Source: Bacteroidales bacterium (lineage in GTDB: Bacteria > Bacteroidota > Bacteroidia > Bacteroidales > UBA12077). From it: a stretch of DNA of 64,000 bases. Made by a program: the position numbers and the translations under genes. This document shows positions 44,845-64,000 of this stretch, piece after piece; within the stretch, counting starts at the first letter, position 1; every line of letters begins with the position of its first letter. The stretch lies in assembly GCA_016342685.1 (NCBI GenBank), contig JAEINU010000002.1, positions 453,085 to 517,084 on the forward strand. The letters run 5' to 3'. The notes under the pieces were generated by a model. That model worked only from the letters and a program-made list of their open reading frames with translations. It did not search any database and was not told the origin of the DNA.

Positions 44845-44865
44845 CTTTATAATCCTCCTTAGCTT

Positions 44866-46647: not shown

Positions 46648-46648
46648 T

Positions 46649-46981: not shown

Positions 46982-46993
46982 AACTAAATCCTT

Positions 46994-48346
46994 TTAGCAT
47001 TTACGGTTTAATTTTTCGTCACCCCAAATATTTTTCATTATCTCGTGAGATTGTTCCCAATCGATAATTCCTTTTTTCTCAAATATTTTTTGAATAAAAA
47101 TGCAATGATTAATTGCTGCTCTTTCCTGAACAATATCTTCGGCTAAAGCCTGACAATTAGGTGCTCCACATGCTCCACAATCGACATCAGGTAAACATTT
47201 CATTATTTCTTTTACTCGGCGCATTTTTTTCATGGCTTCTACCATACTCTTATCCAATTTCATCATGGATCGAGGTTTTATCTTACCTATGGAAACACTT
47301 TCTGTTAAGTATTCTTTATAATTGGTAATATCCTTTTGACCAACATTTGCTCCTGTTTCTTTAAAATATTTTGCTCGTTTCTTAAGACGCTCAACTGTTA
47401 AGAATCTATTTTGTGTATTTAAAACTCCACCTGCACAACTCTCATCGCAAGCACGAAGCTCAAGAAAATCTACATCCTTGATCTCTTCATTCTCTACGCG
47501 TTCCAAGAAATCCATTACATTATGCACACCATCAATTGCAAGGCACCTACCCTGCATATTGTCTGCTTCGCCATTTGTAAGACTCCAAACAGTTCCTTCG
47601 GGAGTTAATTTTTCTTTATTAGTATCAATAACTTTTGAATAATCGCCACGCTTAATTCCAGTATAAACTTTATTGAAAATAAAATCCATATTAATAACTC
47701 CTGTTATTGGAGATTTTTCTTCTCCTACCGGACTTTTAACAGCTGCAATTTTTGAAGCGCAAGGTGTAACATAAAAAATACCTATATCGGATTCATCAAT
47801 TCCTTGCGATACGAGTTTTTGCTTGTAGTATAATGCTGCTATATCTAATGGTGGATGAAGAGGGATTATATTATCGACCAACGCGGGAAACTTAACCTGA
47901 ATTAGTCTAATTACTGCCGGACAAAACGATGAAATCAAAGGTTTATTTTCCGTATTGCGTTCAGCATAATCTTTCATTGCATCTTGCAATACATCTACAC
48001 CATGCTCTGCTTCGTAAACATCTGTAAATCCTAAATCTTTTAAAACACTATAAATTTCAGAGGTTTTTACATCGTCGGGAAACTGACCAATTAATACTGC
48101 TGGTAATAATGCTACTCGGTATTTATATTGAAATATTTTATTAAAATCGTCTTGCTCAATTATAATAGCATTTACAGGACAAACACGAAAACACTCACCA
48201 CAATCAATACAACGATTTTCAAAAAGCTCTGCTTTTCCATTTTTTACACGAATTGCTTCGGTAGGACAAATATTCATACAATGACTACAGCCAATGCATT
48301 GATCTTTTTGAATTTTTAATGCGTGATGAAATACTTTTTGCTCCAT
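46994..48346 (-). CDS. [FeFe]-hydrogenase-like sensor protein (group D type)
   Basis: A 450-residue protein with two [4Fe-4S] motifs (CIGCSHCMNICP, CIDCGECFRVCP), a [FeFe] large-subunit domain (about 75-340) and a C-terminal PF04060 FeS motif (CGACGAPNCQAL, about 395). H-cluster Cys are retained in SSFCPAV, TPCASKI and ACDESCAGG, with the C-x3-C spacing kept, but the proton-shuttle Cys is Phe. No kinase is fused; its partners are the anti-sigma-type ATPase and DRTGG genes on either side. Catalysis is unlikely; H2 or redox sensing is inferred. Confidence 0.88.
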   Translation of the reverse strand: MEQKVFHHALKIQKDQCIGCSHCMNICPTEAIRVKNGKAELFENRCIDCGECFRVCPVNAIIIEQDDFNKIFQYKYRVALLPAVLIGQFPDDVKTSEIYSVLKDLGFTDVYEAEHGVDVLQDAMKDYAERNTENKPLISSFCPAVIRLIQVKFPALVDNIIPLHPPLDIAALYYKQKLVSQGIDESDIGIFYVTPCASKIAAVKSPVGEEKSPITGVINMDFIFNKVYTGIKRGDYSKVIDTNKEKLTPEGTVWSLTNGEADNMQGRCLAIDGVHNVMDFLERVENEEIKDVDFLELRACDESCAGGVLNTQNRFLTVERLKKRAKYFKETGANVGQKDITNYKEYLTESVSIGKIKPRSMMKLDKSMVEAMKKMRRVKEIMKCLPDVDCGACGAPNCQALAEDIVQERAAINHCIFIQKIFEKKGIIDWEQSHEIMKNIWGDEKLNRKC

Positions 48347-49329: not shown

Positions 49330-49980
49330 TTATTTAGAAATAATCTCATTAAAAATCCAATCATACCATTGTTCCATATTAATATTCGCTGTGCAGGACA
49401 CTTCAAAAAATGGCACCTTTCCATTAACGTTATTTAAATCTTTAAGAAAACTTGATCTATTAAAATTTGTATATTCTAATAAATCAATTTTATTCAGAAG
49501 AATCACTTTTGCTTCTCGAAATAACATTGGATATTTAATCGGTTTATCGTCACCTTCAGTAGTACTTACTAATGCTAATTTAAAAGACTCACCCAAATCA
49601 AAATGTGAGGGACAAACAAGATTACCTACATTCTCAATAAAAATAACATCTAAATTTTCTAGATTAAATTTTGGCAAAACCTTTGAAATACTATGAGAAT
49701 CTAAATGACACCCACCCTCAGTATTTATTACAACAATTGGAACCTTATGTTTTTTTAGTCGCTGCGCATCTCGATCAGTAGCAATATCTCCTTCAATAAT
49801 TGCTATTTTGAATGTATTCTTAAGTTTCTCTAAAGTACAATCTAGTAATGTAGTTTTACCTGCTCCTGGTGAGCTAATTAGATTTACCAATAATACATTA
49901 TTCTCTTTCATTAGACTTCGAACCTCGTTGGCTTTATTCTTATTACGATCGAGAACATTTTTCATTATTTTAATTTCCAT
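49330..49980 (-). CDS. hypB: [NiFe] hydrogenase maturation GTPase HypB
   Basis: HypB inserts nickel with HypA. This 216-residue form has the P-loop ISSPGAGKTTLL (about residue 37), the metal-binding Cys/His in NLVCPSHFDLGE (about 117) and NKID (about 162), but no His-rich N-terminal nickel store. It is the last gene of the hyp set. The only [NiFe] hydrogenase in view is the group 4 enzyme at 55.9-64 kb. Confidence 0.95.
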   Translation of the reverse strand: MEIKIMKNVLDRNKNKANEVRSLMKENNVLLVNLISSPGAGKTTLLDCTLEKLKNTFKIAIIEGDIATDRDAQRLKKHKVPIVVINTEGGCHLDSHSISKVLPKFNLENLDVIFIENVGNLVCPSHFDLGESFKLALVSTTEGDDKPIKYPMLFREAKVILLNKIDLLEYTNFNRSSFLKDLNNVNGKVPFFEVSCTANINMEQWYDWIFNEIISK

Positions 49981-50008
49981 AACATTACAGGTTTAAGGTT
50001 AATTCTTT

Positions 50009-50353
50009 TTATTTCTCACCTTCTATGCTTTCTATTATTGTTTCACGCCCTTGAATTAGTTCTAAATCATTCGATCCACAAAACGAACAAACAAATAATA
50101 AATCTTCAATTTCAGTTTCTGCTTTACATTTTTTACACGCGAATTTTATTGGCAAGATTTCCAATTTTAGCCTTGCATTTTTTGCAATTGTCCCCTTTAC
50201 ACCACTTTCAAAAACAAATCGAAAAATATCAGGCACAATTTGAATCATCTTTCCAAATTGAATATTCACCTTAGTAATTTTTTTCAGATTTTCTGACTCA
50301 GCCACCTTAAGAACTATTATGATTAATTCCTCAGCAATTTTTAATTCATGCAT
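50009..50353 (-). CDS. hypA: Hydrogenase nickel metallochaperone HypA
   Basis: A 114-residue HypA: it starts MHEL (His2 and Glu3 bind nickel) and has a zinc site of two CxxC pairs (CKKC, CSFC; about 73-98). It hands nickel to HypB and the large subunit. It lies 28 bases before hypB. Confidence 0.95.
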   Translation of the reverse strand: MHELKIAEELIIIVLKVAESENLKKITKVNIQFGKMIQIVPDIFRFVFESGVKGTIAKNARLKLEILPIKFACKKCKAETEIEDLLFVCSFCGSNDLELIQGRETIIESIEGEK

Positions 50354-50408
50354 ACAATAGTTACTAGTTAAAAGTTCTCAGTTAAAAGTTGTATCCATTT
50401 AATTTATT

Positions 50409-51419
50409 CTAACATATTCGCGGTAATTGCTCGCCTTGTAGCATATTAATTATTCGCTTTCCGCCAATCTCGGTTTTACCTATTACCATTCCGGGATGAT
50501 CAGAAACCACTTCGCCAATAATTCTACTTTCTATTCCTAAAAGGTTTTTATTAAGAATCTCAATTACTCCTTCAGCATCATCGGGATGAACTACCATCAA
50601 TACTTTCCCTTCATTTGCCAAGTACAAAGGATCAAATCCTAAAACTTCACATAATCCTCTAACGGATTCTTTAACAGGAATCTCTTTTTCTTCTAGCTCG
50701 AGCCCTAAATTCACAATTCCAACAAGTTCGTTTAAAACAGTAGCAAGTCCACCGCGGGTAACATCGCGCATAAACTTCACTCGCTTACCAGCCTTTAATA
50801 CACTTTGTATTAGTTCATTTAAGCAAGCACAATCAGATTGAATATCAGTTTTAAAATCCAATTCATTTCTGGCTCCTAAAACTGCAATTGAATGATCCCC
50901 AATAGTTCCATTAACTAATAACTTATCTCCCACACTCACTTTCTCACCTGAACCTATGTAAGTATAATCATTTTCGAAAATTCCTATTCCTGTAGTATTA
51001 ATAAATATCTTATCACATTTCCCATTATTCACCACTTTTGTATCGCCAGCAACAATTTTGATATTAGCCAACTTAGCTTGAACAGAAATTGATTCCACAA
51101 TCCTTTTCAGATCTTTTATCGGTAATCCTTCTTCCAAAATGAAAGAAACTGTCAGATATTTAGGAACTGCTCCTGAAACAGCTAAATCATTCACAGTTCC
51201 ACAAACTGCTAACTTTCCAATATCTCCTCCGGGGAAAAATATCGGATCGATAACAAACGAATCTGTAGTACATGCAATTTTATTTGAATCAATCTTTAAA
51301 ATTGCAGAATCAGATAAAATCGATCTTGGATCACCAAATGATTTGATAAATATATTTTTTATCAAATCCTGCGATGCCTTACCGCCACCTCCATGATTCA
51401 GTGTTATCAGTTCATTCAT
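50409..51419 (-). CDS. hypE: Carbamoyl dehydratase HypE
   Basis: HypE turns the HypF-derived carbamoyl group on its C-terminal Cys into a cyanide ligand. The AIR-synthase fold starts with LNHGGGGKASQDL, and the protein ends PRIC, the thiol acceptor. The start at 51419 (MNELITLNHGGGG) is preferred; an in-frame upstream ATG would overlap hypD far more. The overlap with hypD is 8 bases. Confidence 0.95.
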   Translation of the reverse strand: MNELITLNHGGGGKASQDLIKNIFIKSFGDPRSILSDSAILKIDSNKIACTTDSFVIDPIFFPGGDIGKLAVCGTVNDLAVSGAVPKYLTVSFILEEGLPIKDLKRIVESISVQAKLANIKIVAGDTKVVNNGKCDKIFINTTGIGIFENDYTYIGSGEKVSVGDKLLVNGTIGDHSIAVLGARNELDFKTDIQSDCACLNELIQSVLKAGKRVKFMRDVTRGGLATVLNELVGIVNLGLELEEKEIPVKESVRGLCEVLGFDPLYLANEGKVLMVVHPDDAEGVIEILNKNLLGIESRIIGEVVSDHPGMVIGKTEIGGKRIINMLQGEQLPRIC

Positions 51420-52497
51420 AACTACCATATTTATAATACGCTGCACAAGCACCTTCACTTGAGACCATACATGCTCCGATCGGATTTGAAGGTGAACAGA
51501 CCTTATTAAACAGCTTACAATCTTTCGGCGTTTTTAAGCCTCGCAAAATATCGCCACAAATACATGCTGAATTTTCATTTTCAACATCCACCTTAATATC
51601 AAATATTAGTTCTGCATCATAATTTTTATATTTATTTTTAAGCCTTAATCCACTATTTGGAATCTCACCTATTCCGCGCCAGTAATCATTTCGAGTTTCA
51701 AAAATTTCATTCATTATAGCTTGAGCTTTTGTATTACCTTCCATTGTTACAGCTCTTGAATATTGAATTTGCACTTTAGGGCTTCTATCAACAACTTGAT
51801 TAACCAACATTTCAATCGATTGCATTAAATCCATAGGCTCGAATCCTGTTACTACACAAGCAATTCGGTACTTCTCTGGAATAAAATTATAAATCCGTGA
51901 TCCTGTAATTGCACTTACATGACCAGGGCAAATAAATCCATCAATTCTTACTTTATCGTTCAATAAAGCTTCCATAACAGGTGGCATTATTTTATGTGCA
52001 CTCAGTAAATAAAAATTTGAGATATTTTCTTCGAAAGCCTTTTGAATTGCAACAGCTGAAGCTGGAGCAGTTGTTTCAAAACCAATCCCAAGGAATACTA
52101 CTTTTTTATCTCGATTAGCTTGAGCAATTCTTAAAGCTTCCAAAGTTGAATACACAATTCTAATATCTGCACCTTTTGATTTTTCATTCTCCAAACTACT
52201 CTTAGATCCCGGAACGCGAATCAAATCACCGTAAGTTGTTATTATTACATTATCAATTCCCGAACACAAAATCGCTTTATCAATAAAACTAATACTAGAA
52301 ACACAAACAGGACAACCTGGGCCTGATATCAACTTTATTCCTTTAGCTAATAATGAAGGAATTCCAAATCGATGAATTGCCATAGTGTGACCTCCACACA
52401 CTTCCATAAGTGATATATCCAAATCTCTAAACCGACTTAGTCTTTTAGAGATTATTTCAACTATCTCTGCGTCTCTGTATTCATCTATAAATTTCAT
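51412..52497 (-). CDS. hypD: Fe(CN)2CO assembly protein HypD
   Basis: HypD scaffolds the Fe(CN)2CO unit with HypC. Signature motifs are CGGHTMAIHRFG (about 40), GPGCPVC (about 67) and CPGHVSAITG (about 190). The C-terminal [4Fe-4S] Cys cluster (CICGDILRG ... CKLFNKVC ... GACMVSSEGAC) is complete. It has the usual 361 residues. Confidence 0.96.
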   Translation of the reverse strand: MKFIDEYRDAEIVEIISKRLSRFRDLDISLMEVCGGHTMAIHRFGIPSLLAKGIKLISGPGCPVCVSSISFIDKAILCSGIDNVIITTYGDLIRVPGSKSSLENEKSKGADIRIVYSTLEALRIAQANRDKKVVFLGIGFETTAPASAVAIQKAFEENISNFYLLSAHKIMPPVMEALLNDKVRIDGFICPGHVSAITGSRIYNFIPEKYRIACVVTGFEPMDLMQSIEMLVNQVVDRSPKVQIQYSRAVTMEGNTKAQAIMNEIFETRNDYWRGIGEIPNSGLRLKNKYKNYDAELIFDIKVDVENENSACICGDILRGLKTPKDCKLFNKVCSPSNPIGACMVSSEGACAAYYKYGSYE

Positions 52498-52517
52498 TTT
52501 ATCAAATCTTAACTATA

Positions 52518-52602
52518 CACTTCGACAAGCTCAGTGTGACATACAGTTTTCGACAAGCTCATACTAACGACAAGAATCATGCTTCTAAAAGCTCAGCATG
52601 AC
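52518..52602. repeat. Dispersed intergenic palindrome in the hypC-hypD gap
   Basis: Two or three copies of cttcgacaagctcag-like sequence, partly degenerate (cttcgacaagctcagtgtgac, ttcgacaagctcat, gcttctaaaagctcagcatgac). They interrupt the otherwise tight hyp operon. It belongs to the same family as the copy at 7554-7614. Confidence 0.65.
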
Positions 52603-52614
52603 CAATACCTTTAT

Positions 52615-52830
52615 CTACTCATCATTCATTTCACGTAGCAATTGCAAAGTTATAAGAGCTTCTTTTTCATCAATAATTTGCAAAGCAAAACCCGCATGCA
52701 CTAAGACAAAATCCCCCACCTTTACATTATCAACCATTTGGATTCCAATATTTACAATTGTACCACCAACATCAGCTTCGGCTGCCTTATCTTCTATTTT
52801 TATAATCTTACCCGGAATACTTAAACACAT
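52615..52830 (-). CDS. hypC: Hydrogenase maturation chaperone HypC
   Basis: A 71-residue HypC/HupF that starts MCLSIPGKI, where Cys2 binds the Fe(CN)2CO unit. The start at 52830 is set by this conserved N-terminus; a longer in-frame start would bury Cys2. It lies 1 base after hypF. Confidence 0.95.
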   Translation of the reverse strand: MCLSIPGKIIKIEDKAAEADVGGTIVNIGIQMVDNVKVGDFVLVHAGFALQIIDEKEALITLQLLREMNDE

Positions 52831-52831
52831 A

Positions 52832-55045
52832 TTATAAATAGTTTGATGCAACAACTAATTGACCTAAAGCTATTCCACCATCATTGGGTGGTACTATGCG
52901 ATTCGTGTAGACTTCAAAATTATTTTTAGTAAGTATTTGTATTGATTTCTCAAGTAAATATCGATTTTGGAAAACACCACCAGAAAGCACAACTTTTCTT
53001 AATCCAACATCGCTCTTTATCCGTAATGCAATATTTAAAATTGCTTGAACTATCGTATTATGAAACTTTGCAGAAATTTCTGATGCATCCAATATATTAA
53101 TGTCTGAAAGAATTTCGTTTAAAGTATTCCCAAACTGAAGAATTCCATTCTCAAAATCAAAAGGATAAAAGCTTGTTACACTTTTATCAAGTATAGATTC
53201 TAACCGAATTGGAGCTTCTGCATCAAAGTTTTGCTTTGAACAAATATTAAGTAAACATGCAACAGCATCAAACAATCTACCCGCACTGGAAGTTACTGGA
53301 GAGTTAATATTTTTGGCAAGCATTCTTTTTACTAACTCAATTTCATTGCCTTGCACAGCTTTAAAACATTCCAAATCATCAACATTTCCTATTGAATATT
53401 TAGTTAAATATGATAAAAGCATCCGCCATGGTTCTTCAACTGCTTTATCTCCTCCCGGCATTTGAATATAATCGAAATGCGCATATCGATCGAACGATTT
53501 AGTATCACAAATTAAAAACTCACTGCCCCAAATATTTCCATCAGATCCATAACCTGCTCCATCGAAACATATTCCTATAACCTTTTCATTTATCTGGTTC
53601 TCACACATACACGAAACTATATGCGCGTGATGATGCTGAACTTTTACAATTGGAATTTTGTTTCCATTAATATTTTTATCATTTAATTTTTCTGCAAATT
53701 TTGTAGAAAGGTATTCAGGATGCATATCGCATGCGATTATTTTTGGTTTAAATTTGAAAAGTTCAAAAAATCGTTTTGCTGAATTTTCATAAAAATTATA
53801 TACATCCAAATTTTTAAGATCGCCAATATATTGACTTAAAATTGCCGAGTTCTTTTTACCAATGCCAAAACTGTTTTTTAATTCAGCCCCAGTCGCAAAA
53901 ACACCTTCAATATTTTGATTTAGATATACTGGTTTAGGAACGAAACCGCGAGATCTACGAATAATTTGAATATTATTACCAACAACTTTTACTACAGAAT
54001 CGTCCAAGGGATTTATAATTGCTCGATTATGACTTACAAAAATATCTACCTTATTTTCAAGACTGTTCCGCGCAAAAGCATCATCAGAAACAATTGAATT
54101 ACCTGAACTATTCGCACTCGTGTAAACGATAGCTTTTGTTTTTAATTTTCCAAACAATAAATAATAAAAAGGCAAATAAGGCAGCATAGCTCCGATAGAA
54201 TTCAGATCATTATTTACAGATTTACACAATTCTGCTTTTTGTTCTAAAATAACAATGGGTTTTTGCCAGGATTCTAAAACATCTTGTTCTTTCCTATTTA
54301 CATCACAATACTTTTTAATCGTATCAAAATCCTTAAACATCACTGCGAAAGGTTTCCCATCACGAACTTTAACTTCTCTTACTCTTAATACAGCTTCATT
54401 ATTATTAGCATCACATATAATATTATATCCACCTAAACCTTTTATACAAATTACTTTTCCCTGATCAATACTTATGGCAACTTCATTAATGATCTTTTCA
54501 ATATCATCTTCATTATTTAATAAATATTTCGGACCACAATTATTACAAGCAACCGGTTGGGCATGAAATCTCCTATCCAATACTTCAAGATACTCTTTTT
54601 CACAAACTTCACACATTTCGAATTCCGACATAGATGTATTACACCTGTCGTAGGGTAAATTTTCAACAATAGAAAAACGCGGACCGCAATTAGTACAATT
54701 TATAAAAGGATAGTTTACGCGATGCAATTGAGATTTAAGATCCTGCAAGCAATCATTACAAACTCCAATATCAGGACTAATTTCAGTAATTTTTTCATTT
54801 GCAACGCTAGGAAGAATTTCAAAATCTGAAGATTTAATATCTGCAATATCTTCTAATCTAATATTATTTATACAAGCGGCTGGTGGAGCAAAATTTAGAA
54901 TATCAGATTTAAATTTATCAATTCGTCCAGTATCTCCTGAAATTTTAACAATAACGCCGTCGGTACAATTAGCAACATTCCCCTTTAAATCATATTTTTT
55001 TGCTAAACGATACACAAAAGGTCTAAAACCAACACCTTGAACCAA
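52832..55045 (-). CDS. hypF: Carbamoyltransferase HypF
   Basis: HypF makes the carbamoyl group for the cyanide ligands. The acylphosphatase domain (VQGVGFRPFVYRLAKKY), zinc fingers with paired CxxC (CNDC, CTNC, CEVC, CNNC; about 95-180), a YrdC-like domain (about 190-370) and a Kae1-like domain with HHHAHIVSCM (about 460) are all present. The only standard start in frame is a TTG at 55045. The first beta-strand of the acylphosphatase domain (KTSVSISIEG) is encoded upstream to about 55078 with no ATG, GTG or TTG, so the real start may be a rare ATT or the 5' end may be damaged. Confidence 0.93.
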   Translation of the reverse strand: MVQGVGFRPFVYRLAKKYDLKGNVANCTDGVIVKISGDTGRIDKFKSDILNFAPPAACINNIRLEDIADIKSSDFEILPSVANEKITEISPDIGVCNDCLQDLKSQLHRVNYPFINCTNCGPRFSIVENLPYDRCNTSMSEFEMCEVCEKEYLEVLDRRFHAQPVACNNCGPKYLLNNEDDIEKIINEVAISIDQGKVICIKGLGGYNIICDANNNEAVLRVREVKVRDGKPFAVMFKDFDTIKKYCDVNRKEQDVLESWQKPIVILEQKAELCKSVNNDLNSIGAMLPYLPFYYLLFGKLKTKAIVYTSANSSGNSIVSDDAFARNSLENKVDIFVSHNRAIINPLDDSVVKVVGNNIQIIRRSRGFVPKPVYLNQNIEGVFATGAELKNSFGIGKKNSAILSQYIGDLKNLDVYNFYENSAKRFFELFKFKPKIIACDMHPEYLSTKFAEKLNDKNINGNKIPIVKVQHHHAHIVSCMCENQINEKVIGICFDGAGYGSDGNIWGSEFLICDTKSFDRYAHFDYIQMPGGDKAVEEPWRMLLSYLTKYSIGNVDDLECFKAVQGNEIELVKRMLAKNINSPVTSSAGRLFDAVACLLNICSKQNFDAEAPIRLESILDKSVTSFYPFDFENGILQFGNTLNEILSDINILDASEISAKFHNTIVQAILNIALRIKSDVGLRKVVLSGGVFQNRYLLEKSIQILTKNNFEVYTNRIVPPNDGGIALGQLVVASNYL

Positions 55046-55108: not shown

Positions 55109-55744
55109 TTATTCTATAACCTTTTCGGTGTAATAAATTACACTCTCAAGTTCGTCGCAGAGATTTATGTTGTTTACAATAATATTTTCTGGAGTTTTAA
55201 GCATTACCGGTGCAAAATTCAGAAATCCCTTAATTCCTAAATCTATTAACCTATCTAATACATCCTGGGCTGATATTTCGGGAACAGCTATAATTGCCAC
55301 CTTAACATGGAATTTTTTAATAATATCATCTAACATTTCTAGTGGCAAAACAGGAATTCCCCAACGTCTGGATTGTTTGGATGGGTCAATATCAAACGAT
55401 GCCACAATAATCATTTTTCGCAAAAGAAATCTTTTATACTGAACCAAAGCTCTTCCAATATTACCCATTCCAACAATTACTACATGCTGATTGTGCTGAT
55501 ATTTAAACACTTCGTCTATTGCTCGTAATAAATCGTTAATTTGATAGCCCCCTTTTTTATTCCCCCTAATTTTAAAAAAAGAAAAGTCTTTCCGCACTTG
55601 CTCTGCAGTAACTCCCGCTTCTTCTCCTAGATTATGTGAAAAGATCCGATCAAATCCCTTGCGCTTAAATCCTATCAAACATAATCGATAAGTAAACAGT
55701 CGCTTTAGATTACTCTTAATATTATATTTTGTGTTTTGTTTCAC
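55109..55744 (-). CDS. Redox-sensing repressor Rex (copy 2, divergent)
   Basis: A 211-residue Rex paralogue with the winged helix (TYRLCLIGFKRKG; VTAEQVRKDFSFF) and Rossmann fold (IVGMGNIGRALVQ, about 92). It begins with GTG. It is the first gene of the hyp operon and divergent from the [NiFe] hydrogenase genes. Rex sensing of NADH is the family function; its target may differ from copy 1, as no clear classical site lies in the divergent region here. Confidence 0.9.
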   Translation of the reverse strand: MKQNTKYNIKSNLKRLFTYRLCLIGFKRKGFDRIFSHNLGEEAGVTAEQVRKDFSFFKIRGNKKGGYQINDLLRAIDEVFKYQHNQHVVIVGMGNIGRALVQYKRFLLRKMIIVASFDIDPSKQSRRWGIPVLPLEMLDDIIKKFHVKVAIIAVPEISAQDVLDRLIDLGIKGFLNFAPVMLKTPENIIVNNINLCDELESVIYYTEKVIE

Positions 55745-55916
55745 AATAAAAAACGCATTAATAACATTTTTTACAAGTTATGCAAGTTTTTTGTGAATAA
55801 AAAATATACATCTTAAATACTGGTTTCCTTTTGCTTATGTATTTTTATAATATGTTGTATAGCATCTTTTCTTTAATTCTCTTGACTTTTGGTTTTTTAC
55901 CCTATTAATTTTATAT

Positions 55917-56936
55917 GTGAATAATATCACATATATGAAAAATTATTATTCATTATTAATTTCTGATTGGAATGCGGTAATTGAAAAAACATTACCCAAT
56001 TATTCAATATATGCTCCTTTAAAAGAAAACGACTCCTTAGACTACGAATTAATTGATTTAGAAAACCTAAGTAATATTTCATATAACATCCCAAAACCCA
56101 CTACTCCTCTAAAAACATTCTTTTTACCAATTAAAGAGAATTTAACAACGGAATTAAAGTCAGAAAAGAAACGAATTATTATTGGCTCCCCAAATTGTGA
56201 TATTCAAGGATTAAAAATTTTGGATGAAATATATCTGGACAAAGATTTTGTGGATACATCATATCAAAACAAAAGAGAGAATACGCTTTTAATAGGAACT
56301 GCATGTTACGAAACTTTAGAACATTGTCATTGTATGTCTTATGGAATAAGACCATTTTCTATGGAGACTGCAGATATTTCATTATCTAAGGTTGATACAA
56401 GAATACATTTAGAAGTACTTTCTGAAAAAGGTGAACAATTCATTTCAGAGATAAAAGAGTACTCAGCCATTTCGAATTCCCCAGAATCAGAAATAAAAGA
56501 TATTGAGCTAAAACAAAGCAAAATAGAAAATGAAATTATTGCCAATAACACAGGATTACCGGACTATAAAAAAACAGGGGAAATTGTACAAAAAGCAAAA
56601 GATGAAATTTGGAATAAATACTCATCGAAATGTGTGTCATGTGGAGCATGTGCAACAATTTGTCCCACTTGTACATGCTTCTTATTAATTGACAAACCCA
56701 ATTTTGAAAAAGTGCGTCAATTAGATGCATGTCAATACCCAGGATTTGAACGTGTAGCGGGTAACGAAGACGCTTTACACGAGCTATCAATAAGATTTAG
56801 GAACAGATACTTCTGTAAATATGTTTGGAAACCCCAAAAATTCAAATCCTTAGCATGTACCGGATGTGGCAGATGTATAGAAGCATGTATTGGCAAAATC
56901 AATAAAAACGAATTATTCAGAGAATTAGCAAACTAA
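55917..56936 (+). CDS. Sulfhydrogenase beta / AsrA-like [4Fe-4S] subunit
   Basis: A 339-residue iron-sulfur subunit related to the beta subunit of archaeal sulfhydrogenase and to anaerobic sulfite reductase A. C-terminal [4Fe-4S] motifs are CVSCGACATICPTCTC (about 239) and CTGCGRCIEAC (about 318). Conserved CDIQGLKILDEIY and ACYETLEHCHC segments precede them. It passes electrons between the flavin subunit and the hydrogenase core. GTG at 55917 or ATG at 55935 could start it. It is the first gene of the rightward [NiFe] operon, 2 bases before the flavin subunit. Confidence 0.88.
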   Translation: MNNITYMKNYYSLLISDWNAVIEKTLPNYSIYAPLKENDSLDYELIDLENLSNISYNIPKPTTPLKTFFLPIKENLTTELKSEKKRIIIGSPNCDIQGLKILDEIYLDKDFVDTSYQNKRENTLLIGTACYETLEHCHCMSYGIRPFSMETADISLSKVDTRIHLEVLSEKGEQFISEIKEYSAISNSPESEIKDIELKQSKIENEIIANNTGLPDYKKTGEIVQKAKDEIWNKYSSKCVSCGACATICPTCTCFLLIDKPNFEKVRQLDACQYPGFERVAGNEDALHELSIRFRNRYFCKYVWKPQKFKSLACTGCGRCIEACIGKINKNELFRELAN

Positions 56937-56938
56937 GA

Positions 56939-57763
56939 ATGTCGAACAAAACGAACATATACAAACCCATTAAGGCAAAATTGTTAGATGTAATTACAGA
57001 ATCTCCAACAATTAAAACTTTTATTATGGAACCTGAAGAAGAGTTTTCATTTAAAACAGGTGAATTTATAGAATTAACAGTGGATGGAATTGGAGAAGCT
57101 CCATTTACTCCATCTTCATCACCACTTGAAACAAAACAGATTGAAGTTACGGTGATGAAAACTGGTTATGTTACTCAATATCTTCATGAAATGAAACCCG
57201 GTGAAACTTTAGGAATTCGAGGACCATTTGGGCGAGGTTATCCTGTTGAAAAATTTTACGATAAAGAAGTTCTGATATTAGGTGGAGGTTGTGGTTTTGC
57301 CCCAATCCGATCATTACTGTATAATCTCGAAGCAATATCAGATAAATTAAGAAAAGTAACACTTTGTTATGGCTCCAAAACACCTGATGAATGTATTTAT
57401 CAACCATATGTAGATCAACTCAGAAACACTCCAAAATTTGAAGTTCTAAGAACTGTTGATGAACCTAATGAATCTTGGTCAGAATCAGTTGGAGTTGCTA
57501 CCGTTTTACTTGATAAAGTTAAAGTTGACATAAAGAATTCAATTGCTGTTTGTTGCGGCCCACCAATCATGATGAAGTTCGGAACGTTTAAACTTCTTGA
57601 AATGGGTTATCCTGAAAATGACATCTTTTTATCGATGGAAAAAAACATGTCGTGCGGATTGGGAAAATGTGGTCATTGCATGATGGGAAAATATTTTGTT
57701 TGCAAAGAAGGACCTGTATTTACATACGATGAAATTAAAGATCAACCAGATATCTGGAGTTAA
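56939..57763 (+). CDS. Sulfhydrogenase gamma / AsrB-like FAD-NAD(P)H subunit
   Basis: A 274-residue ferredoxin-NADP reductase-like protein: FAD-binding beta-barrel (about 10-100, GPFGRGYPV), NAD(P) Rossmann half (ILGGGCGFAPIRSLLY, about 104) and C-terminal [2Fe-2S] loop with CGLGKCGHCMMGKYFVC. It should move electrons between NAD(P)H and the beta subunit. In a group 4 hydrogenase operon this links the ion-pumping enzyme to NAD(P)H rather than only ferredoxin. It is 5 bases from the next gene. Confidence 0.9.
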   Translation: MSNKTNIYKPIKAKLLDVITESPTIKTFIMEPEEEFSFKTGEFIELTVDGIGEAPFTPSSSPLETKQIEVTVMKTGYVTQYLHEMKPGETLGIRGPFGRGYPVEKFYDKEVLILGGGCGFAPIRSLLYNLEAISDKLRKVTLCYGSKTPDECIYQPYVDQLRNTPKFEVLRTVDEPNESWSESVGVATVLLDKVKVDIKNSIAVCCGPPIMMKFGTFKLLEMGYPENDIFLSMEKNMSCGLGKCGHCMMGKYFVCKEGPVFTYDEIKDQPDIWS

Positions 57764-57768
57764 ATATT

Positions 57769-58269
57769 ATGGACAAAAAGATATTAATAGATTTAAGCAA
57801 GTTTAGAGAGTGTGGCAATAGCAGTTGCGATATAACTCCACCTGAAGGATTTTTTAGTCATTTAACAAATACGAATGGTTTAAAATCAATAAGAGAATTA
57901 GCTGTATTTCAATTAACGTGTCGGAAATGTGAAGATGCGCCTTGTATCAGTGTTTGTCCTTTTGAAGCATTGGAGAAAGACTCCGATGGATTAATTCATA
58001 GATATACCAATTTATGTATCTCATGCAAATCATGTGTTACAATTTGTCCATTTGGTACTATGATGACAGACTTTTTTGATCATCATAGAAAGAAAGACTT
58101 GTTTTTTGATTTATCTGATGAGCATGAAGTAAAAGAATTTATTAAAGCATGTCCGTTAGGCTCAGTATCCTTGGTTACTATGGATGAAAATCCAGAAGAA
58201 AATATTTACAAGTTAAATGACAATGTTTTAGTCAAAGAAAATATTTGGAATACTAAAGAAAGTACTTAA
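57769..58269 (+). CDS. Di-cluster ferredoxin subunit (HycB/CooF-like)
   Basis: A 166-residue [4Fe-4S] protein with CRKCEDAPCISVCP (about 45-58) and CISCKSCVTICP (about 84-95), plus extra Cys pairs early (ECGNSSCD) and late (KACPLGS) that could complete further clusters. It is the electron link between the diaphorase module and the NuoB/D-like core. It follows the flavin subunit and precedes the membrane subunit (27-base gap). Confidence 0.88.
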   Translation: MDKKILIDLSKFRECGNSSCDITPPEGFFSHLTNTNGLKSIRELAVFQLTCRKCEDAPCISVCPFEALEKDSDGLIHRYTNLCISCKSCVTICPFGTMMTDFFDHHRKKDLFFDLSDEHEVKEFIKACPLGSVSLVTMDENPEENIYKLNDNVLVKENIWNTKEST

Positions 58270-58296
58270 AGTTAAAAGTGCCTAAAATCAAAAAAA

Positions 58297-59229
58297 ATGG
58301 CAGAGCAATTATTTTATTTTCTAATTTATCCGGGACTTCTTTTTGCAGCAGTCATAGGTGCTTTTTTATCGTGGTACGATAGAAAAATAACAGCATGGGT
58401 GCAATTCCGAAAAGGCCCACCTTTATTTCAGCCATTTTACGATTTCTTTAAGTTGCTTTTAGTAAAAGAAACCATCTTACCAAAGCATGGATCTAAAGGA
58501 GTATTTTTAGCTGCACCAATTTTTGCAGTATTTGGCGCATCAATTGCTGGCGTATTTATTCTACTCCCAGTTATGGGAATCGAAACCGGATTCAAAGGAG
58601 ATATCATTGTCATATTCTATCTTTTAACTATTCCATCGTTAACTTATATAATTGGAGCATTAGCTTCTGGAAATCCTTTAGCTGCATTGGGTGGCTCCCG
58701 TGAAATGAAACTTATTTTAAGTTACGAATTAACTTTCATACTAGTTCTTGCCGGAATTATTCAAAAAGCTGGAATGACAATCAGCTTTAGCGAAATAATA
58801 TCATTGCAGACCTTAAACGGAGTATTTGCCGGAAGCTTATCTGGTATCATATTGTTTATAGTATTTATTTTCTGTATTCAGGCAAAACTTGCCTTAGTAC
58901 CATTCGATGCCCCAGAAGCAGAAACTGAAATTTCTGAAGGAATCATGATTGAATATTCAGGAACTCCTTATGCTATGATCAAGCTTACAAAATATATTAT
59001 GTTTTTCATACTTCCTGCATTCCTGATTGGATTGCTATGGGGCGGACTAAATTTCGAAGGAATAAATATTCTTTGGTCAATATTAAAAATATTATTTGTA
59101 GTGCTATTACTTACTCTAATTAGAAATACAAATCCTAGAGTAAAAATTAAGCAAGCTATCAGATATTTCATAGTATGGATGAACTTACTAGCTATAATAG
59201 CAATTGTGCTATCATATTTTGGATTATAA
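58297..59229 (+). CDS. NuoH-like membrane subunit of group 4 [NiFe] hydrogenase
   Basis: A 310-residue protein with about eight transmembrane helices, homologous to EchB/HycD/MbhM/NuoH. The conserved loop VQFRKGPPLFQPFYDFFKLL (about 30-49) and PFDAPEAETEISEGIMIEYSG (about 206-226) carry the acidic residues of the quinone-cavity/E-channel. It anchors the hydrophilic arm. It is 12 bases from the NuoB-like gene. Confidence 0.94.
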   Translation: MAEQLFYFLIYPGLLFAAVIGAFLSWYDRKITAWVQFRKGPPLFQPFYDFFKLLLVKETILPKHGSKGVFLAAPIFAVFGASIAGVFILLPVMGIETGFKGDIIVIFYLLTIPSLTYIIGALASGNPLAALGGSREMKLILSYELTFILVLAGIIQKAGMTISFSEIISLQTLNGVFAGSLSGIILFIVFIFCIQAKLALVPFDAPEAETEISEGIMIEYSGTPYAMIKLTKYIMFFILPAFLIGLLWGGLNFEGINILWSILKILFVVLLLTLIRNTNPRVKIKQAIRYFIVWMNLLAIIAIVLSYFGL

Positions 59230-59241
59230 AAATTAATTATC

Positions 59242-59652
59242 GTGGGATTTAAAGAATTCTGTTTTAAAAAATCTTTGTGGTTGTTTCATTTCGGTGGTGC
59301 TTCATGTAACAATTGTGATATTGAAATACTCGATTGTCTTACTCCGCGATATGATGTTGAGCGATTTGGGATGTTGCTTGTTGGAAGTATTAGACATGCT
59401 GATGTATTACTTGTAAATGGCTCCATTAATCAGAGAGATAAAAGCAGATTATTAGAAATATATGAACAAGCTTCAAAACCAATAGTGGTTGTTGCAATTG
59501 GTGCTTGTGGTTGTACAGGAGGAATATTTGCCGAAGGAAATACATTTGCAGGACCTGTTGATAAAATCATTCCGGTTGATGCATATATTCCTGGCTGTCC
59601 GCCAAAGCCTGAAGCGATTCTAGCAGGAATTGTAAAACTTTTAAATAAGTAA
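59242..59652 (+). CDS. NuoB-like small subunit of group 4 [NiFe] hydrogenase
   Basis: A 136-residue small subunit (EchC/HycG/MbhJ type) with the proximal [4Fe-4S] ligands in ASCNNCD (about 17), GACGCTGG (about 92) and PGCPPKPE (about 117). It begins with GTG. It passes electrons to the NiFe site in the NuoD-like subunit. It is 12 bases from the next gene. Confidence 0.94.
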   Translation: MGFKEFCFKKSLWLFHFGGASCNNCDIEILDCLTPRYDVERFGMLLVGSIRHADVLLVNGSINQRDKSRLLEIYEQASKPIVVVAIGACGCTGGIFAEGNTFAGPVDKIIPVDAYIPGCPPKPEAILAGIVKLLNK

Positions 59653-59664
59653 AAGAGATTCGAT

Positions 59665-60102
59665 ATGAATACGGATGAAATCTTAAAAAATATTAAAGAC
59701 AAATTTAGTGCTGATGTACTTGATGTTTTCAAAAAATGGGAAACAAGAGCTACCATCACCATTAACCCTGCATCTCTTTTACAAATCGCTGAATATGTAT
59801 TTAAAGATCTTGAATTCAGATTTATTATTGCGACAGCAAATCATACAAAAAAAGGATTTGAGATACTTTATCATTTCAGCAAAGATGATATTGGTTTAAT
59901 AGCAAATTTAAATGTGATTCTTCCTGCCGACAAGCCTAAAATAGAGTCATTATCAAATATGTTTTCGGCTACAAACTGGATTGAACGAGAGATCCATGAG
60001 TTATATGGCATCGAATTTTTAAACCATCCCGAACCTGAAAAATTAATTTCTGAAGGCAACTGGGCCGAAGGAGTTTATCCATATAGAAGAGAGTTTAAAT
60101 AA
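59665..60102 (+). CDS. NuoC-like subunit of group 4 [NiFe] hydrogenase
   Basis: A 145-residue NuoC/EchD/MbhK-like protein with the family C-terminal motif WIEREIHELYGIEFLNHPEP (about 112-131). It braces the small and large subunits. A 109-base gap of AT-rich sequence with no visible feature separates it from the large-subunit gene. Confidence 0.9.
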   Translation: MNTDEILKNIKDKFSADVLDVFKKWETRATITINPASLLQIAEYVFKDLEFRFIIATANHTKKGFEILYHFSKDDIGLIANLNVILPADKPKIESLSNMFSATNWIEREIHELYGIEFLNHPEPEKLISEGNWAEGVYPYRREFK

Positions 60103-60211
60103 GAAAGATTAAAGTTAAAAGATAAAAGAATGATGAATAACGAACCTAAAATCTAATCAAGTAAAATAAATATAGGATATAAAAGAAACAGGAAATAAGC
60201 AACTAAATAAA

Positions 60212-61405
60212 ATGGTTAAAAAAACACTCATACCAATTGGACCATACCATCCGCTTCAGGAAGAACCTGAACTATTTAAGTTGTATTGCGAAGGTGAAAT
60301 CGTAAAAGACATTAAATGGGAAACAGGTTATAACCACCGTGGTATTGAGCAATTAAGCGAGAAAAAAACCTTCGATCAGTCTTTCTTTCTTGTAGAAAGA
60401 ATCTGTGGAATTTGCTCTACATCACATCCATTTGCATTTGCTAATGCAATTGAAGAAGCTGGCAATATTGAAATTACAAACAGAGCAAAATATATACGAA
60501 CAATTATTGGGGAGTTGGAACGAATTCATAGTCATTTACTTTGGGTTGGGCTTGCTGGTCACTTTTTAGGATACAATACTGTTTTTATGTGGGCTTGGAA
60601 ATATCGTGAACCAGTTCTTGATTTATTTGAAATGATTTCTGGAAATAGAAATAGCTACGCCATGTTTAAGGTTGGTGGAGTTCGAAGAGATATTGAAAAT
60701 AATAAGATATCAGAAATAGTTAAAGTTCTCGATTTAGTTAAAAAGAAAACCGATATGTTGGTTGGTGCTGTAATGGACGATCCGGTAATTCATGCCAGAA
60801 CGAAAGGTGTTGGTATTCTAAGCAAACAAGATATTTTTGATTATGCAGCCGTTGGACCAACAGCTCGTGCTTCAGGAGTCGCTATTGATGTTCGAAAGGA
60901 CGACCCGTATGCTGCTTACCCTTTAGTTAACTGGAAAGTAATTACAGCAGAAAAAGGTGATGTTTTTGCCAAAGCTGAAGTTCGCTTATTGGAAATGTAC
61001 GAATCAATATCCATTGTAGAACAATGTTTAGAAGGATTGAAAAAAGAAAAAGAAGGAGATATTGAAGTTAAAGTAAAGGATATACCTGCCGGTTGGGGTA
61101 CCGGGCGCGCAGAAGCTCCACGCGGCGAAGTTTTTCATTATGTTTTAACCGATGGATCAAATTCACCGGCAAGACATAAAATACGCGCCCCTAGCTATAC
61201 CAATATTGCAACTTTTAAGAAATCATGTATTGGACAAACCATTTCGGATGCAACGATTTCTTTAGCTGCAGTTGATCCTTGCTATTGCTGTACTGAACGA
61301 ATGGCTGTTGCATACGATAGTAAAACAGGATACAGAATTCTAAATGGAAACCAGCTTATTGCTTTATCTGCAAAAAGAACGCAAAATATTAAGAATCAAT
61401 CTTAA
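60212..61405 (+). CDS. NiFe-binding large subunit of group 4 hydrogenase (NuoD/EchE-like)
   Basis: A 397-residue catalytic subunit that keeps both NiFe Cys pairs: RICGICSTSH (about 66-75) and DPCYCCTER (about 350-358). Complex I NuoD lacks these, so this is a true hydrogenase. The C-terminal stretch after the second pair is about 40 residues and may be cleaved by a maturation protease, but none is encoded in view. The hyp genes that build its metal site are divergent and adjacent. Confidence 0.95.
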   Translation: MVKKTLIPIGPYHPLQEEPELFKLYCEGEIVKDIKWETGYNHRGIEQLSEKKTFDQSFFLVERICGICSTSHPFAFANAIEEAGNIEITNRAKYIRTIIGELERIHSHLLWVGLAGHFLGYNTVFMWAWKYREPVLDLFEMISGNRNSYAMFKVGGVRRDIENNKISEIVKVLDLVKKKTDMLVGAVMDDPVIHARTKGVGILSKQDIFDYAAVGPTARASGVAIDVRKDDPYAAYPLVNWKVITAEKGDVFAKAEVRLLEMYESISIVEQCLEGLKKEKEGDIEVKVKDIPAGWGTGRAEAPRGEVFHYVLTDGSNSPARHKIRAPSYTNIATFKKSCIGQTISDATISLAAVDPCYCCTERMAVAYDSKTGYRILNGNQLIALSAKRTQNIKNQS

Positions 61406-61414
61406 AGGTTCGAT

Positions 61415-63280
61415 ATGAATGAAATAACATACATAATTTGTTTACCAATATTCGCAGGGATATTACTATTTGCTATTCCTGAGAAACTTAAAACAGTTAA
61501 AGGAATATTTGCAAGTATAATTACTCTGTATGGTCTTTATCAATCAATATTGATATTTAATGGTCAGATTGGAGTTTTTGATCTAAAACAACTTATTAGT
61601 GATTCTGGTATTTGTCAGTTATTTGGTAACTCATTAAATGATGCTGCTAAATATGCAACATTTAACATTGATTCTCTGAGTCAGTTAATTATTTTATTCA
61701 TCAATATTTTTGCTGTTTTAATTGTAATATATTCTCTTTTTTATATTGATAAGAAAAAGAAAGTTTACAATTATTACGCATTCTTTCTAATTACATTGGG
61801 AACATCCAACGGAGCAGTATTATCGAACAATTTATTATTGTTCTTGACTTTCTGGGGAATTTTAGGTTTCACATTATACAAGCTTATCAAGAGTGCAGAT
61901 GAAGAAAGTTCTTCGGCTGCAAAGAAAACACTGGTTATTGTAGGAGCTTCAGATGGCATTATGATCTTAGGCATTGCAATTATTTGGAAGCTTACAAATA
62001 CACTAAGCATTAATGAAATAAGTCTGGCAACCAATAATGCTTTAACAATTACAGCTTTCCTAACTTTATTAATTGGAAGTTTTACAAAGGCCGGTGCTTT
62101 TCCTTTTCATACTTGGGTTCCCGATTATGCTAAAAGTGCCCCCGCATCTTCAACAGCATATATGCCAGCTTCACTGGATAAATTACTGGGAATCTATTTC
62201 CTTGCAAGAATCTGCAATAATATGTTTGTATTAAATCAATGGTTAACATTTACTTTATTAACTATTGGTGTAATAACCATTATTACAGCTGTAATGATGG
62301 CGCTAGTGCAGCACAATTACAAAAAACTACTTGGATTCCATGCTGTTTCCCAGGTTGGATATATGATTGTCGGCTTTGGGCTTGGAACTGTAATTGGTAT
62401 CGCTGCCGGGTTATTCCATATGCTTAATAATGTATTATATAAAACAGGACTTTTCCTAGTTTCTGGAAATGTGGAAAAACAAACTGGTAAAAATGACATT
62501 GATGATCTAAGTGGATTATCTAAGACCATGCCTATAACATTCATCTGTGCTTTAATATTTGCATTATCAATCTCGGGTATTCCGCCATTCAATGGATTTG
62601 CATCGAAATGGATGATTTATCAGGGAATTATTGAATTTGGGCAAGGAACAGGAATTGCAAACCAATTATGGATTGTATGGTTAGGTTTGGCTGTTTTAGG
62701 ATCGGCATTAACGCTAGCTAGTTTTGTTAAATTTATTTCTGGCCTATTCTTAGGAAGAAGACAAAAAGAATTTGAAAAAGTTAAAGAAGTCAACATACTC
62801 GGATGGTTACCAATCAGCTTAATTGCTATTGGATGTATCGTGTTTGGAGTTTTCTCAACCAAGTTTATTGTTCCAAAATTATTTAATCCGATAGTTGGAG
62901 AAATTAAATTAATCGGTATGTGGAACTCAACTACCGTTTCTATTCTGGTTCTAGCTTCGATTGTTCTTGGACTAATAATTTATATGATTGGAAATATTAA
63001 AAACTTTAGAACGGAAGATAGCTTTGTGGGTGGAGGAGAAACCATGCGTGAAGATGCACATTTTTCTACAACCGGATTTTATGAATCCATTAAGAATTTT
63101 GGATTCCTATCAACTCTATACAAAAAAGCTGAAGAACGTTGGTTCGATATATATGATATCTCCAAGAAAATCATCTTTTGGATTAGTAAAGGACTTAAAG
63201 CAGAGCATACTGGAATATTAACCAATTATGCCATTTGGGTTTTTGCAGGATTAATAATCATGTTACTTATTTTAATTTAA
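61415..63280 (+). CDS. Antiporter-like membrane subunit (NuoL/MrpA/HyfB-like)
   Basis: A 621-residue protein with about 16 transmembrane helices. The ion-path residues are visible in GSFTKAGAFPFHTWVPDYAK (about 222-241) and YMPASLDKLLGIYFLARIC, and in the AVSQVGYMIVGFG segment. The C-terminal 90 residues, ending in a final helix, resemble the lateral-helix/anchor of MrpA or NuoL. It should pump H+ or Na+. It is the first of a set of Mrp-like genes and lies 9 bases after the catalytic large subunit. Confidence 0.92.
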   Translation: MNEITYIICLPIFAGILLFAIPEKLKTVKGIFASIITLYGLYQSILIFNGQIGVFDLKQLISDSGICQLFGNSLNDAAKYATFNIDSLSQLIILFINIFAVLIVIYSLFYIDKKKKVYNYYAFFLITLGTSNGAVLSNNLLLFLTFWGILGFTLYKLIKSADEESSSAAKKTLVIVGASDGIMILGIAIIWKLTNTLSINEISLATNNALTITAFLTLLIGSFTKAGAFPFHTWVPDYAKSAPASSTAYMPASLDKLLGIYFLARICNNMFVLNQWLTFTLLTIGVITIITAVMMALVQHNYKKLLGFHAVSQVGYMIVGFGLGTVIGIAAGLFHMLNNVLYKTGLFLVSGNVEKQTGKNDIDDLSGLSKTMPITFICALIFALSISGIPPFNGFASKWMIYQGIIEFGQGTGIANQLWIVWLGLAVLGSALTLASFVKFISGLFLGRRQKEFEKVKEVNILGWLPISLIAIGCIVFGVFSTKFIVPKLFNPIVGEIKLIGMWNSTTVSILVLASIVLGLIIYMIGNIKNFRTEDSFVGGGETMREDAHFSTTGFYESIKNFGFLSTLYKKAEERWFDIYDISKKIIFWISKGLKAEHTGILTNYAIWVFAGLIIMLLILI

Positions 63281-63286
63281 AATAGC

Positions 63287-63814
63287 ATGGAATTAACACT
63301 TTCAATATTATTAGGATTTATGATTATCGGAGCCATATTCGCTCTTCATGCTAAAGATTTGCTTTCGGCTGTTATTGCTGCAGGAATTGTGGGCTATAGT
63401 CTTGTAATATGCTTTTTGTTATTAAAAGCTCCTGATTTAGCTATAGTTCAAATTGTGGTAGAAACAATTACTCTGATAATAATGGTAGCAGTTGTTCTAG
63501 ATAGTACCCGTCAAGAATTAAGTGTTAAAATTGATCGACAACAAATTATCAATATTTCACTTGCAGTTATTTTTATGCTTGTTCTGGTATTTTTCTTTAT
63601 CCAAGCAATAAATACACTTAATCCATTCGGAGAACATTCTTTAAGAATGGCAAGTGCTTATGTTGGAGAAACTGCAAGTAAAACAGGAAGTGCCAACCTA
63701 GTTACAGGAGTATTATTTGATTTTCGTGGATATGATACTTTAGGCGAAGCTACTATTCTATTTACAGCGGCAATTGGTGTATTAACTATTTTAAGAATTA
63801 AAGGAAAGAAATAA
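63287..63814 (+). CDS. MbhD-MbhE-like (DUF4040) membrane subunit, fused
   Basis: A 175-residue protein with about five helices. Residues 1-80 match MbhD/MrpA C-terminal ([40 protein letters not shown]). Residues 90-175 match MbhE/MrpB-type ([20 protein letters not shown]). In Pyrococcus Mbh these are separate genes; here one protein covers both. It lies 4 bases before the next gene. Confidence 0.87.
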
Positions 63815-63818
63815 AACT

Positions 63819-64000
63819 ATGCAAGGAATGTCTCTCATAGTAAAAAAAGTAGCTCAGCTAATAACAGGCTTTGTATTTCTTTATGGAATATACATCATTG
63901 TTCATGGACATCTTACACCTGGCGGTGGTTTTGCCGGCGGTGCAATTTTAGCAGGCGCATACATTCTACAAATCCTTGCGTTTGGGCGAGATCCTTTACA
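63819..64000 (+). CDS. MrpB/MbhF-like antiporter subunit (partial at right edge)
   Basis: The first 60 codons of a membrane protein are present; the gene continues past the window. Helix 1 (QLITGFVFLYGIYIIVHGHL) and the family motif GHLTPGGGFAGGAILAGAYI (about 31-50) place it with MrpB/MnhB/MbhF. It starts 4 bases after the DUF4040-type subunit, in the same operon. The remaining Mrp subunits would lie to the right. Confidence 0.9.
   Translation, partial: MQGMSLIVKKVAQLITGFVFLYGIYIIVHGHLTPGGGFAGGAILAGAYILQILAFGRDPL

Follow-up and report, generated by a model that had tools for sequence, protein, structure and literature searches.

What supplies the electrons of a group 4 [NiFe] hydrogenase whose operon also encodes sulfhydrogenase-type beta and gamma subunits? 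The question is raised by the end of a 64,000-nucleotide stretch of DNA (the window, here C23:453085-517084) from a Bacteroidales bacterium of the UBA12077 lineage (GenBank assembly GCA_016342685.1, contig JAEINU010000002.1), whose genome comprises 4.77 Mb in 54 contigs with a completeness of 100 and a contamination of 1.84. Window positions 55917-64000 hold nine complete plus-strand genes followed by the start of MrpB, and together they bring a HydB/HydG (beta/gamma) pair, a hydrogenase core and Mrp antiporter-type subunits into one operon. Here, sequence comparisons lead us to propose that the operon encodes a membrane-bound, ion-coupled and reversible NAD(P)H:H2 oxidoreductase, and we consider the chance that the enzyme is both NAD(P)H-linked and ion-coupled to be about even.

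Gene content and conservation of the operon

The contig extends 255 kb past the window end, and the operon goes on there on the same strand, giving the full order HydB-HydG-CooF/HycB-NuoH-B-C-D-MrpA-like-MbhDE-MrpB-C-D-E-F-G-NuoI-HycI, in which MrpC is NuoK-like. A previous sequence-only reading of the window had named the genes up to MrpB in this order and on this strand and had proposed looking past 64 kb for the remaining Mrp subunits; the order and strand are borne out, and MrpB to MrpG are found on the contig, followed by NuoI and HycI. Three refinements are needed, namely that ATG 55935 is a likelier start of HydB (55917-56936) than GTG 55917 (judged by eye), that the window's final complete gene is an MbhD-MbhE fusion (63287-63814), and that MrpB opens at 63819 and is truncated by the window end, running to contig position 517340. 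The intergenic gaps within the window span 2-27 bp, with the exception of 109 bp ahead of NuoD, and a promoter and terminator scan gave a signal no higher than in shuffled sequences.

The core of the operon is that of a group 4 [NiFe] hydrogenase, with homologues of NuoH, NuoB, NuoC, NuoD and NuoI all present. The nearest solved structures of the NuoD/MbhL-like large subunit (60212-61405) are those of Mbh (6cfw_L, E 1.4e-82) and HycE (7z0s_E, E 4.9e-75), followed by complex I, and its identity amounts to 41% with MbhL and 35% with HycE, as read from an alignment that still contained one wrong row (L178). In a tree of 25 rows, built with few references and showing long branches, eight rows of the clade together with MbhL and HycE split from Nqo4 and 14 Bacteroidota NuoD proteins (complex I rows filtered from L006-L033 and L051-L062) with a support of 100/100. 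The NiFe ligands C65, C68, C357 and C360 are invariant in all 86 distinct full-length large subunits (invariance was counted throughout on such sequences only, others being left out on account of their length, of X or of a contig end), in agreement with the intact ligands claimed by the sequence-only reading and unlike Mbx and complex I, where the ligands are lost. Of the published group 4 motifs, L1 (C[GS][ILV]C[AGNS]xxH) is matched by CGICSTSH, while at L2 ([DE][PL]Cx[AGST]Cx[DE][RL]; PMC7886697) the corresponding DPCYCCTER retains the ligand cysteines and deviates at one side position, with Cys in place of [AGST]. The deviating residue, C359 (window 61277-61291, residues 356-360), is a third cysteine between two NiFe ligands and, being invariant in 86/86, a possible signature of the clade. 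Since the Mbh chain ends at an arginine aligned with R363, the 34 residues that follow R363 here are likely a tail cleaved at maturation, and a HycI-type protease gene (C23:521191-521634) stands in the same operon, after NuoI. The NuoB/MbhJ-like small subunit (59242-59652; PF01058), the predicted carrier of the proximal [4Fe-4S] cluster, keeps C22, C25, C89 and C119 in 79/79 sequences, and a NuoC/MbhK-like subunit (59665-60102; PF00329) completes this group.

The membrane arm would consist of NuoH, two antiporter-like subunits and MrpB, C, E, F and G. The NuoH/MbhM-like subunit (58297-59229) matches PF00146 with an E of 2.3e-62, and the MbhD-MbhE fusion (PF13244, PF20501) corresponds to the C-terminal part of MrpA. 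The antiporter-like subunits are a 621-residue protein that resembles the N-terminal part of MrpA and NuoL (61415-63280; PF00361) and a 507-residue MrpD (MrpD/MbhH-like), and in both many Lys, His and acidic residues are invariant across the relatives. Structural matches of the 621-residue subunit include 7qru_A, 6cfw_H and, across residues 30-606, the 618-residue Mbx subunit 6u8y_X.

The input module is formed by a HydB/AsrA-like FeS beta subunit, recognized by profile and PDB matches, and a HydG/AsrB-like gamma subunit (56939-57763) with FAD, NAD(P) and [2Fe-2S] domains (PF00970, PF00175 and PF10418). The best solved match of both is Pyrococcus furiosus sulfhydrogenase I (9nez_B, E 1.5e-30, and 9nez_C, E 4.8e-48), in keeping with the sulfhydrogenase type that the sequence-only reading had assigned. 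Sixteen cysteines of HydB are invariant in 61/61 sequences, and Cys 239, 244, 247 and 255 of HydG in 73/73. All curated profile scores lie under their cut-offs, including 155.6 bits for ShyB, 129.1 for AsrA and 124 for HydB in the case of the beta subunit (cut-offs 690, 323 and 750), 196 bits for AsrB in the case of the gamma subunit (cut-off 289), and every ShyB, HydB, ShyC and HydG equivalog score of the pair. The alpha and delta subunits that define group 3b are not what accompanies the pair, the large and small subunits being Nuo-type.

Pairing of HydB/HydG with a different NiFe enzyme, named by the sequence-only reading as a point on which it could fail, was ruled out for the own genome, where a single PF00374 match (completeness 100) leaves no second NiFe large subunit, the two PF00346 (49-kDa) matches are pieces of one gene with no complex I NuoD besides, and the search for a second HydB returned the CooF-like gene as the next best match at E 0.005.

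The gene order recurs beyond this genome. We sampled the best 80 of 396 relatives, picked by large subunit, all with Bacteroidota titles and nearly all metagenome-assembled; a set of 99 loci was reduced to 87 once identical large subunits were removed, and sufficient flank for the counts of the upstream module, the adjoining regulator and the downstream genes was available in 69, 64 and 57, respectively. HydB-HydG-CooF precedes NuoH within 3.2 kb, with strand and order unchanged, in 69/69 testable loci, and a complete Mrp set with NuoI and HycI follows downstream in order in 57/57, which argues that the order of diaphorase, core and Mrp genes, seen here in Bacteroidota only, is more than chance. 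Loci L169 and L151 were excluded from the 69 for runs of N, and an apparent loss of the module in L169 was rejected, the cluster being cut by such runs on both sides. Two named strains are among the relatives, Labilibacter sediminis CG51 (L147), which has the operon, and Marinilabiliaceae JC017. The same gene order was found in three loci from other families of the order (L180, L181, L182) and in a more distant lineage (G267, locus L089), whose large subunit is 58% identical.

The distribution of the enzyme was then read at increasing taxonomic depth. In its own genus, a large subunit at 90% identity or more is present in 10 of the 20 genomes, own included, and some of the other ten are incomplete; the sister genus has it in 5/5, and the scan that covered both in 18 of 59 genomes. 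Across the order, HydG at 63% identity or more occurs in 20/393 genomes from 13 families, with the operon present in all nine of the 20 that were inspected. A further 17 genomes of the order have HydG at 37-40%, and of the two inspected, one (L183) lacks HydB nearby and the other (L184) carries its gene by Hdr-like genes (by eye). In this latter locus (G424:C135, 771-7631), the other HydB-HydG pair is 26% and 39% identical to that of the window and, judged by eye, shows the module put to another use within this order. The class of G267 has the large subunit in 2/197 genomes, one of which (G814, locus L179) has a contig that begins at the large subunit and hides the input genes, and at the phylum level a match better than E 1e-100 was obtained in 2/395 genomes, the own one and G267.

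Proposed electron path and energetics

Two linker proteins may connect the input module to the hydrogenase core. The CooF-like protein (57769-58269), a CooF/HycB/DmsB-type ferredoxin with two [4Fe-4S] sites (Fer4_11 and other profiles), has eight cysteines that are invariant in 76/76 sequences, and its PDB matches comprise 6cz7_B (1.3e-14), HycB3 and HycB4 of HDCR (7qv7; 1.8e-11 and 6.7e-11) and HycB of formate hydrogenlyase (FHL; 7z0s_B, 1.8e-9). The extended NuoI (C23:520580-521194), encoded downstream of MrpG, has HycF of FHL as its best solved match (7z0s_F, 3.1e-21), with MbhN of Mbh weaker (6cfw_N, 1.6e-12), and scores 104 bits against an FHL FeS model with a cut-off of 204. Past its two clusters, NuoI carries four extra cysteines, C126, C129, C190 and C193, that are invariant in 59/59 sequences. 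In HycF, a quartet of Cys117, Cys120, Cys155 and Cys158 (CxxC-x34-CPxC) is located in a C-terminal extension that contacts HycB (PMC9474812), and C126 and C129 of NuoI align with Cys117 and Cys120. By analogy, this HycF-type extension suggests that NuoI has a fixed partner at this position, not free ferredoxin. The simplest model would be the FHL relay with HydB/HydG substituting for FdhF.

In such a model, electrons would pass from NAD(P)H through FAD and [2Fe-2S] to the clusters of HydB, and further through CooF, NuoI and NuoB to the NiFe site. The CooF-like protein would dock on NuoI as HycB does on HycF, the beta/gamma module would occupy the place of FdhF, and turnover would be coupled to Na+/H+ movement as in Mbh. 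At ordinary H2 levels, NADH (about -280 to -320 mV) is not a strong enough donor to form H2 and pump ions as well, and the likeliest working direction would therefore be one in which inflowing ions power H2 release from NAD(P)H. Reported potentials are about -280 mV for NADH in cells, -414 mV for H+/H2 and about -500 mV for ferredoxin (PMC9304861). A Nernst estimate (29.6 mV per tenfold change) places H+/H2 at about -296 mV for 10 Pa of H2 and -266 mV for 1 Pa. Passing electrons from NADH to H2 is thus uphill or roughly neutral and yields nothing to spend on pumping, and it would need ion influx as its driving force. At high H2, the enzyme could run in reverse, with H2 uptake, NAD(P)+ reduction and ion export, and at 1 kPa (-355 mV) this would yield about 14 kJ/mol and could export about one ion against about 150 mV. 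The sequence-only reading suggested a backward mode in which an ion gradient powers an H2-driven NAD(P) reductase. This inverts the energetics, since the step from H2 to NAD(P)+ is downhill at high H2 and it is the step from NAD(P)H to H2 that would need the gradient. We regard the same reading with ion-driven H2 release as its main direction as rather doubtful. Somewhat less doubtful, albeit still short of an even chance, is the view that the operon represents an uncharacterised class of respiratory complex, a NAD(P)H:H+ (H2) oxidoreductase with a two-antiporter Mrp arm and independently recruited sulfhydrogenase beta/gamma subunits that act as NuoEFG does in complex I.

Regulation and neighbouring genes

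Divergent from HydB lies a gene for a Rex-type redox regulator (55109-55744, minus strand; PF06971 and PF02629), which would fit control by NADH/NAD+, and in 57 of the 64 testable loci a Rex gene lies no more than 600 bp from HydB. The palindrome ATGTGA-N6-TCACAT at 55915-55932, located 2 bp before the likely HydB ATG with three mismatches to the Rex box, is a candidate Rex (or Crp/Fnr-type) operator, the TGTGA-N6-TCACA core fitting Crp/Fnr-type regulators too. Another Rex-box-like site, with two mismatches, overlaps the predicted rex start (55729-55746). Sites with at most two mismatches to the Rex consensus were found in 59 of 77 upstream regions, against 0.4 in shuffles, in a set that includes near-duplicates and two mis-cut regions spanning thousands of bases (L079, L157); since the commonest of these sites overlaps the start predicted for rex, coding sequence may contribute to the signal. 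Beyond rex, the NiFe maturation genes hypB, hypA, hypE, hypD, hypC and hypF occupy 49330-55045 on the minus strand (TIGR00073, TIGR00100, TIGR02124, TIGR00075, TIGR00074 and TIGR00143), with the hypA match slightly under its cut-off (86.4 versus 88.1 bits).

Further upstream, window positions 40743-48346 encode an NADH-dependent [FeFe] hydrogenase (41259-43034; 891 bits to a group A6 model with a cut-off of 765) together with NuoE-like and NuoF-like genes, and a second protein in this cluster (46994-48346) is weakly FeFe-hydrogenase-like. Cycling of H2 between the [FeFe] enzyme and the group 4 enzyme is possible. The own genome also has Rnf-type and Nqr-type genes, told apart by eye, and V-type and F-type ATPase genes, likewise assigned by eye. 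Among these, a V-ATPase rotor subunit (G000:C4:360806-361216; L176, L177) contains LPGTQGLYGF and FPELYAI and presumably resembles the Na+-binding kind of Enterococcus hirae; a shorter c-type subunit lies among F-type genes about 1.3 kb off. On the other side of the operon, HycI is followed by a 135-residue protein without a confident family (L002, 13647-14054), present in 54 of the 99 loci, many of which end short of its position, and then by a membrane protein that is weakly DsbD_2-like.

Alternative readings and known systems

Several findings weigh against the NAD(P)H:H2 oxidoreductase proposed here. The best solved match of the CooF-like protein, 6cz7_B, is a ferredoxin subunit and not a hydrogenase subunit, and the protein retains two cluster sites where HycB has four. 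The second cysteine pair of NuoI, although also CPxC, falls outside the HycF alignment, and the pairs are spaced by 60 residues versus 34. NuoI or CooF could still be an entry point for ferredoxin, the gamma-subunit sequence does not tell NADH from NADPH preference, and the ion coupling is that suggested by homology. The enzyme is patchy in its own genus, with four genomes (G400, G404, G405 and G408) lacking the large subunit at 93-98% completeness, and Rex does not adjoin HydB in seven of the 64 loci, including both named strains (L147 and L166). The [FeFe] cluster, which lies about 11 kb upstream, provides the cell with a second enzyme that links NADH and H2. Finally, the open-access literature that we searched, with most subscription papers outside it, holds no biochemistry of a group 4 enzyme with a sulfhydrogenase module, nor of one in Bacteroidota.

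The points that concern ferredoxin bear on two other readings. In one, a NiFe-active counterpart of Mbx would pump ions while balancing ferredoxin (via NuoI/CooF), NAD(P)H and H2; NuoI and CooF are indeed ferredoxin-like, one of the two antiporter-like subunits resembles the 618-residue Mbx subunit, and Ech and Mbh draw their electrons from ferredoxin (PMC9356269; PMC5037454). We nevertheless find such a three-way enzyme unlikely, as NuoI has the extension that in FHL contacts HycB and domain scans detect a single flavin domain, in HydG. A plain ferredoxin-dependent, Mrp-linked hydrogenase of the group 4d/4g kind, with HydB/HydG in a side role, shuttling electrons between ferredoxin and NAD(P)H, would agree with a core nearest to Mbh in the PDB and with the listing of group 4g as putatively ferredoxin-coupled (PMC5037454), but the presence of beta/gamma in every testable locus and of HycB/HycF-type linker proteins makes it quite improbable. 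The HycB-like and HycF-like subunits could also serve a formate-linked enzyme with its molybdopterin subunit encoded elsewhere, and the genome has three molybdopterin-enzyme loci, while a related cluster in Saganbacteria RX5A includes such an enzyme. These loci, however, are on other contigs (C38, C2 and C9), one of them beside a NuoF-like gene (L172, by eye); neither the operon nor its continuation contains one or encodes a formate dehydrogenase subunit, and the 3.2-kb limit leaves no room between HydB and NuoH in 69/69 loci, the rest of which were not searched, so we consider a formate-linked enzyme very unlikely. The AsrA and AsrB matches, together with the sulfur reductase activity described for group 3b enzymes (PMC8542988), would suit an H2-driven sulfur reductase in which beta/gamma belong to a sulfite or polysulfide reductase (AsrA/AsrB or the sulfur reductase of sulfhydrogenase). 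We give this the least credence of all, both scores being under their cut-offs and NIR_SIR (AsrC-type) proteins having no match in the genome, which also rules out an anaerobic sulfite reductase AsrABC.

If the NAD(P)H:H2 oxidoreductase reading is true, anaerobes could spend a Na+/H+ gradient to move NAD(P)H electrons onto protons without ferredoxin or electron bifurcation. The enzyme would then stand next to bifurcation as a further route from NADH to H2 and would parallel, by independent origin, the NADH module of complex I. The operon of Labilibacter sediminis CG51 makes a direct assay possible in a named strain.

Contrary to the sequence-only suggestion that the module combination may be undescribed, group 4 subunits, Mrp-like subunits, cooF, asrA and asrB are reported in one region of Saganbacteria RX5A, a member of another phylum, there with an additional molybdopterin oxidoreductase that the operon studied here lacks (PMC6349859); this was the single matching gene set that our literature searches brought up. 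That cluster is called enigmatic by its authors, who put forward as a hypothesis that it works like Mbh and list Zixibacteria and Omnitrophica as the nearest relatives; the likeness is drawn from the gene descriptions, and NAD(P)H is not mentioned as a donor in the passages of that report on the cluster. The gene set is not wholly undescribed, and what we report is a simpler version that lacks the molybdopterin enzyme and recurs patchily across Bacteroidota families. Outside archaea, the donor of Mrp-linked group 4 enzymes is, in the texts available to us, either taken to be ferredoxin or given as unknown (PMC6349859, PMC8542988, PMC5037454). Mrp-linked group 4g enzymes are described in Omnitrophota and Cloacimonadota, with ferredoxin taken as donor in the latter (PMC8542988), and group 4g itself is called undetermined in role (PMC5037454) and is said to be polyphyletic (PMC11291895).

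Among characterized enzymes, P. furiosus Mbh (6cfw, group 4d) offers the nearest solved large subunit and likewise has an Mrp-type membrane arm, but its donor is ferredoxin, and it has no diaphorase and one antiporter-like subunit. P. furiosus Mbx (6u8y) shares two antiporter-like chains, one of 618 residues; it is hydrogenase-related and does not keep the NiFe ligands. Its described activity is that of a ferredoxin:NADP+ oxidoreductase (PMC6349859). Beta and gamma subunits that resemble those of the operon occur in P. furiosus sulfhydrogenase I (9nez, group 3b), a soluble enzyme that lacks a membrane arm and brings an alpha/delta hydrogenase part of its own. In the Fdh2-Mfh2-Mnh2 cluster of Thermococcus onnurineus (PMC8965080), an input module, a membrane hydrogenase and a Na+/H+ antiporter module also occur together, with formate dehydrogenase as the input. 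An Asgard group 4 complex (PMC11291895) combines a NiFe core, an L-like subunit with an HL helix and two antiporters; ferredoxin is its proposed donor, and the sections of the report at hand describe no sulfhydrogenase module. Similarly, the account of Thermococcus litoralis FHL to which we had access presents a formate dehydrogenase and describes no beta/gamma pair (PMC2432063). In E. coli FHL-1, there is a single antiporter-like subunit, and an Mrp B-G set is lacking. This enzyme (7z0s; PMC9474812) shares the HycB-HycF-HycG-HycE-type relay, an extended NuoI with added cysteines and the large-subunit tail, and differs in having FdhF where the operon studied here has HydB/HydG, and four clusters in HycB. 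Judged from sequence, the plan of the operon comes closest to that of a formate hydrogenlyase with another input module.

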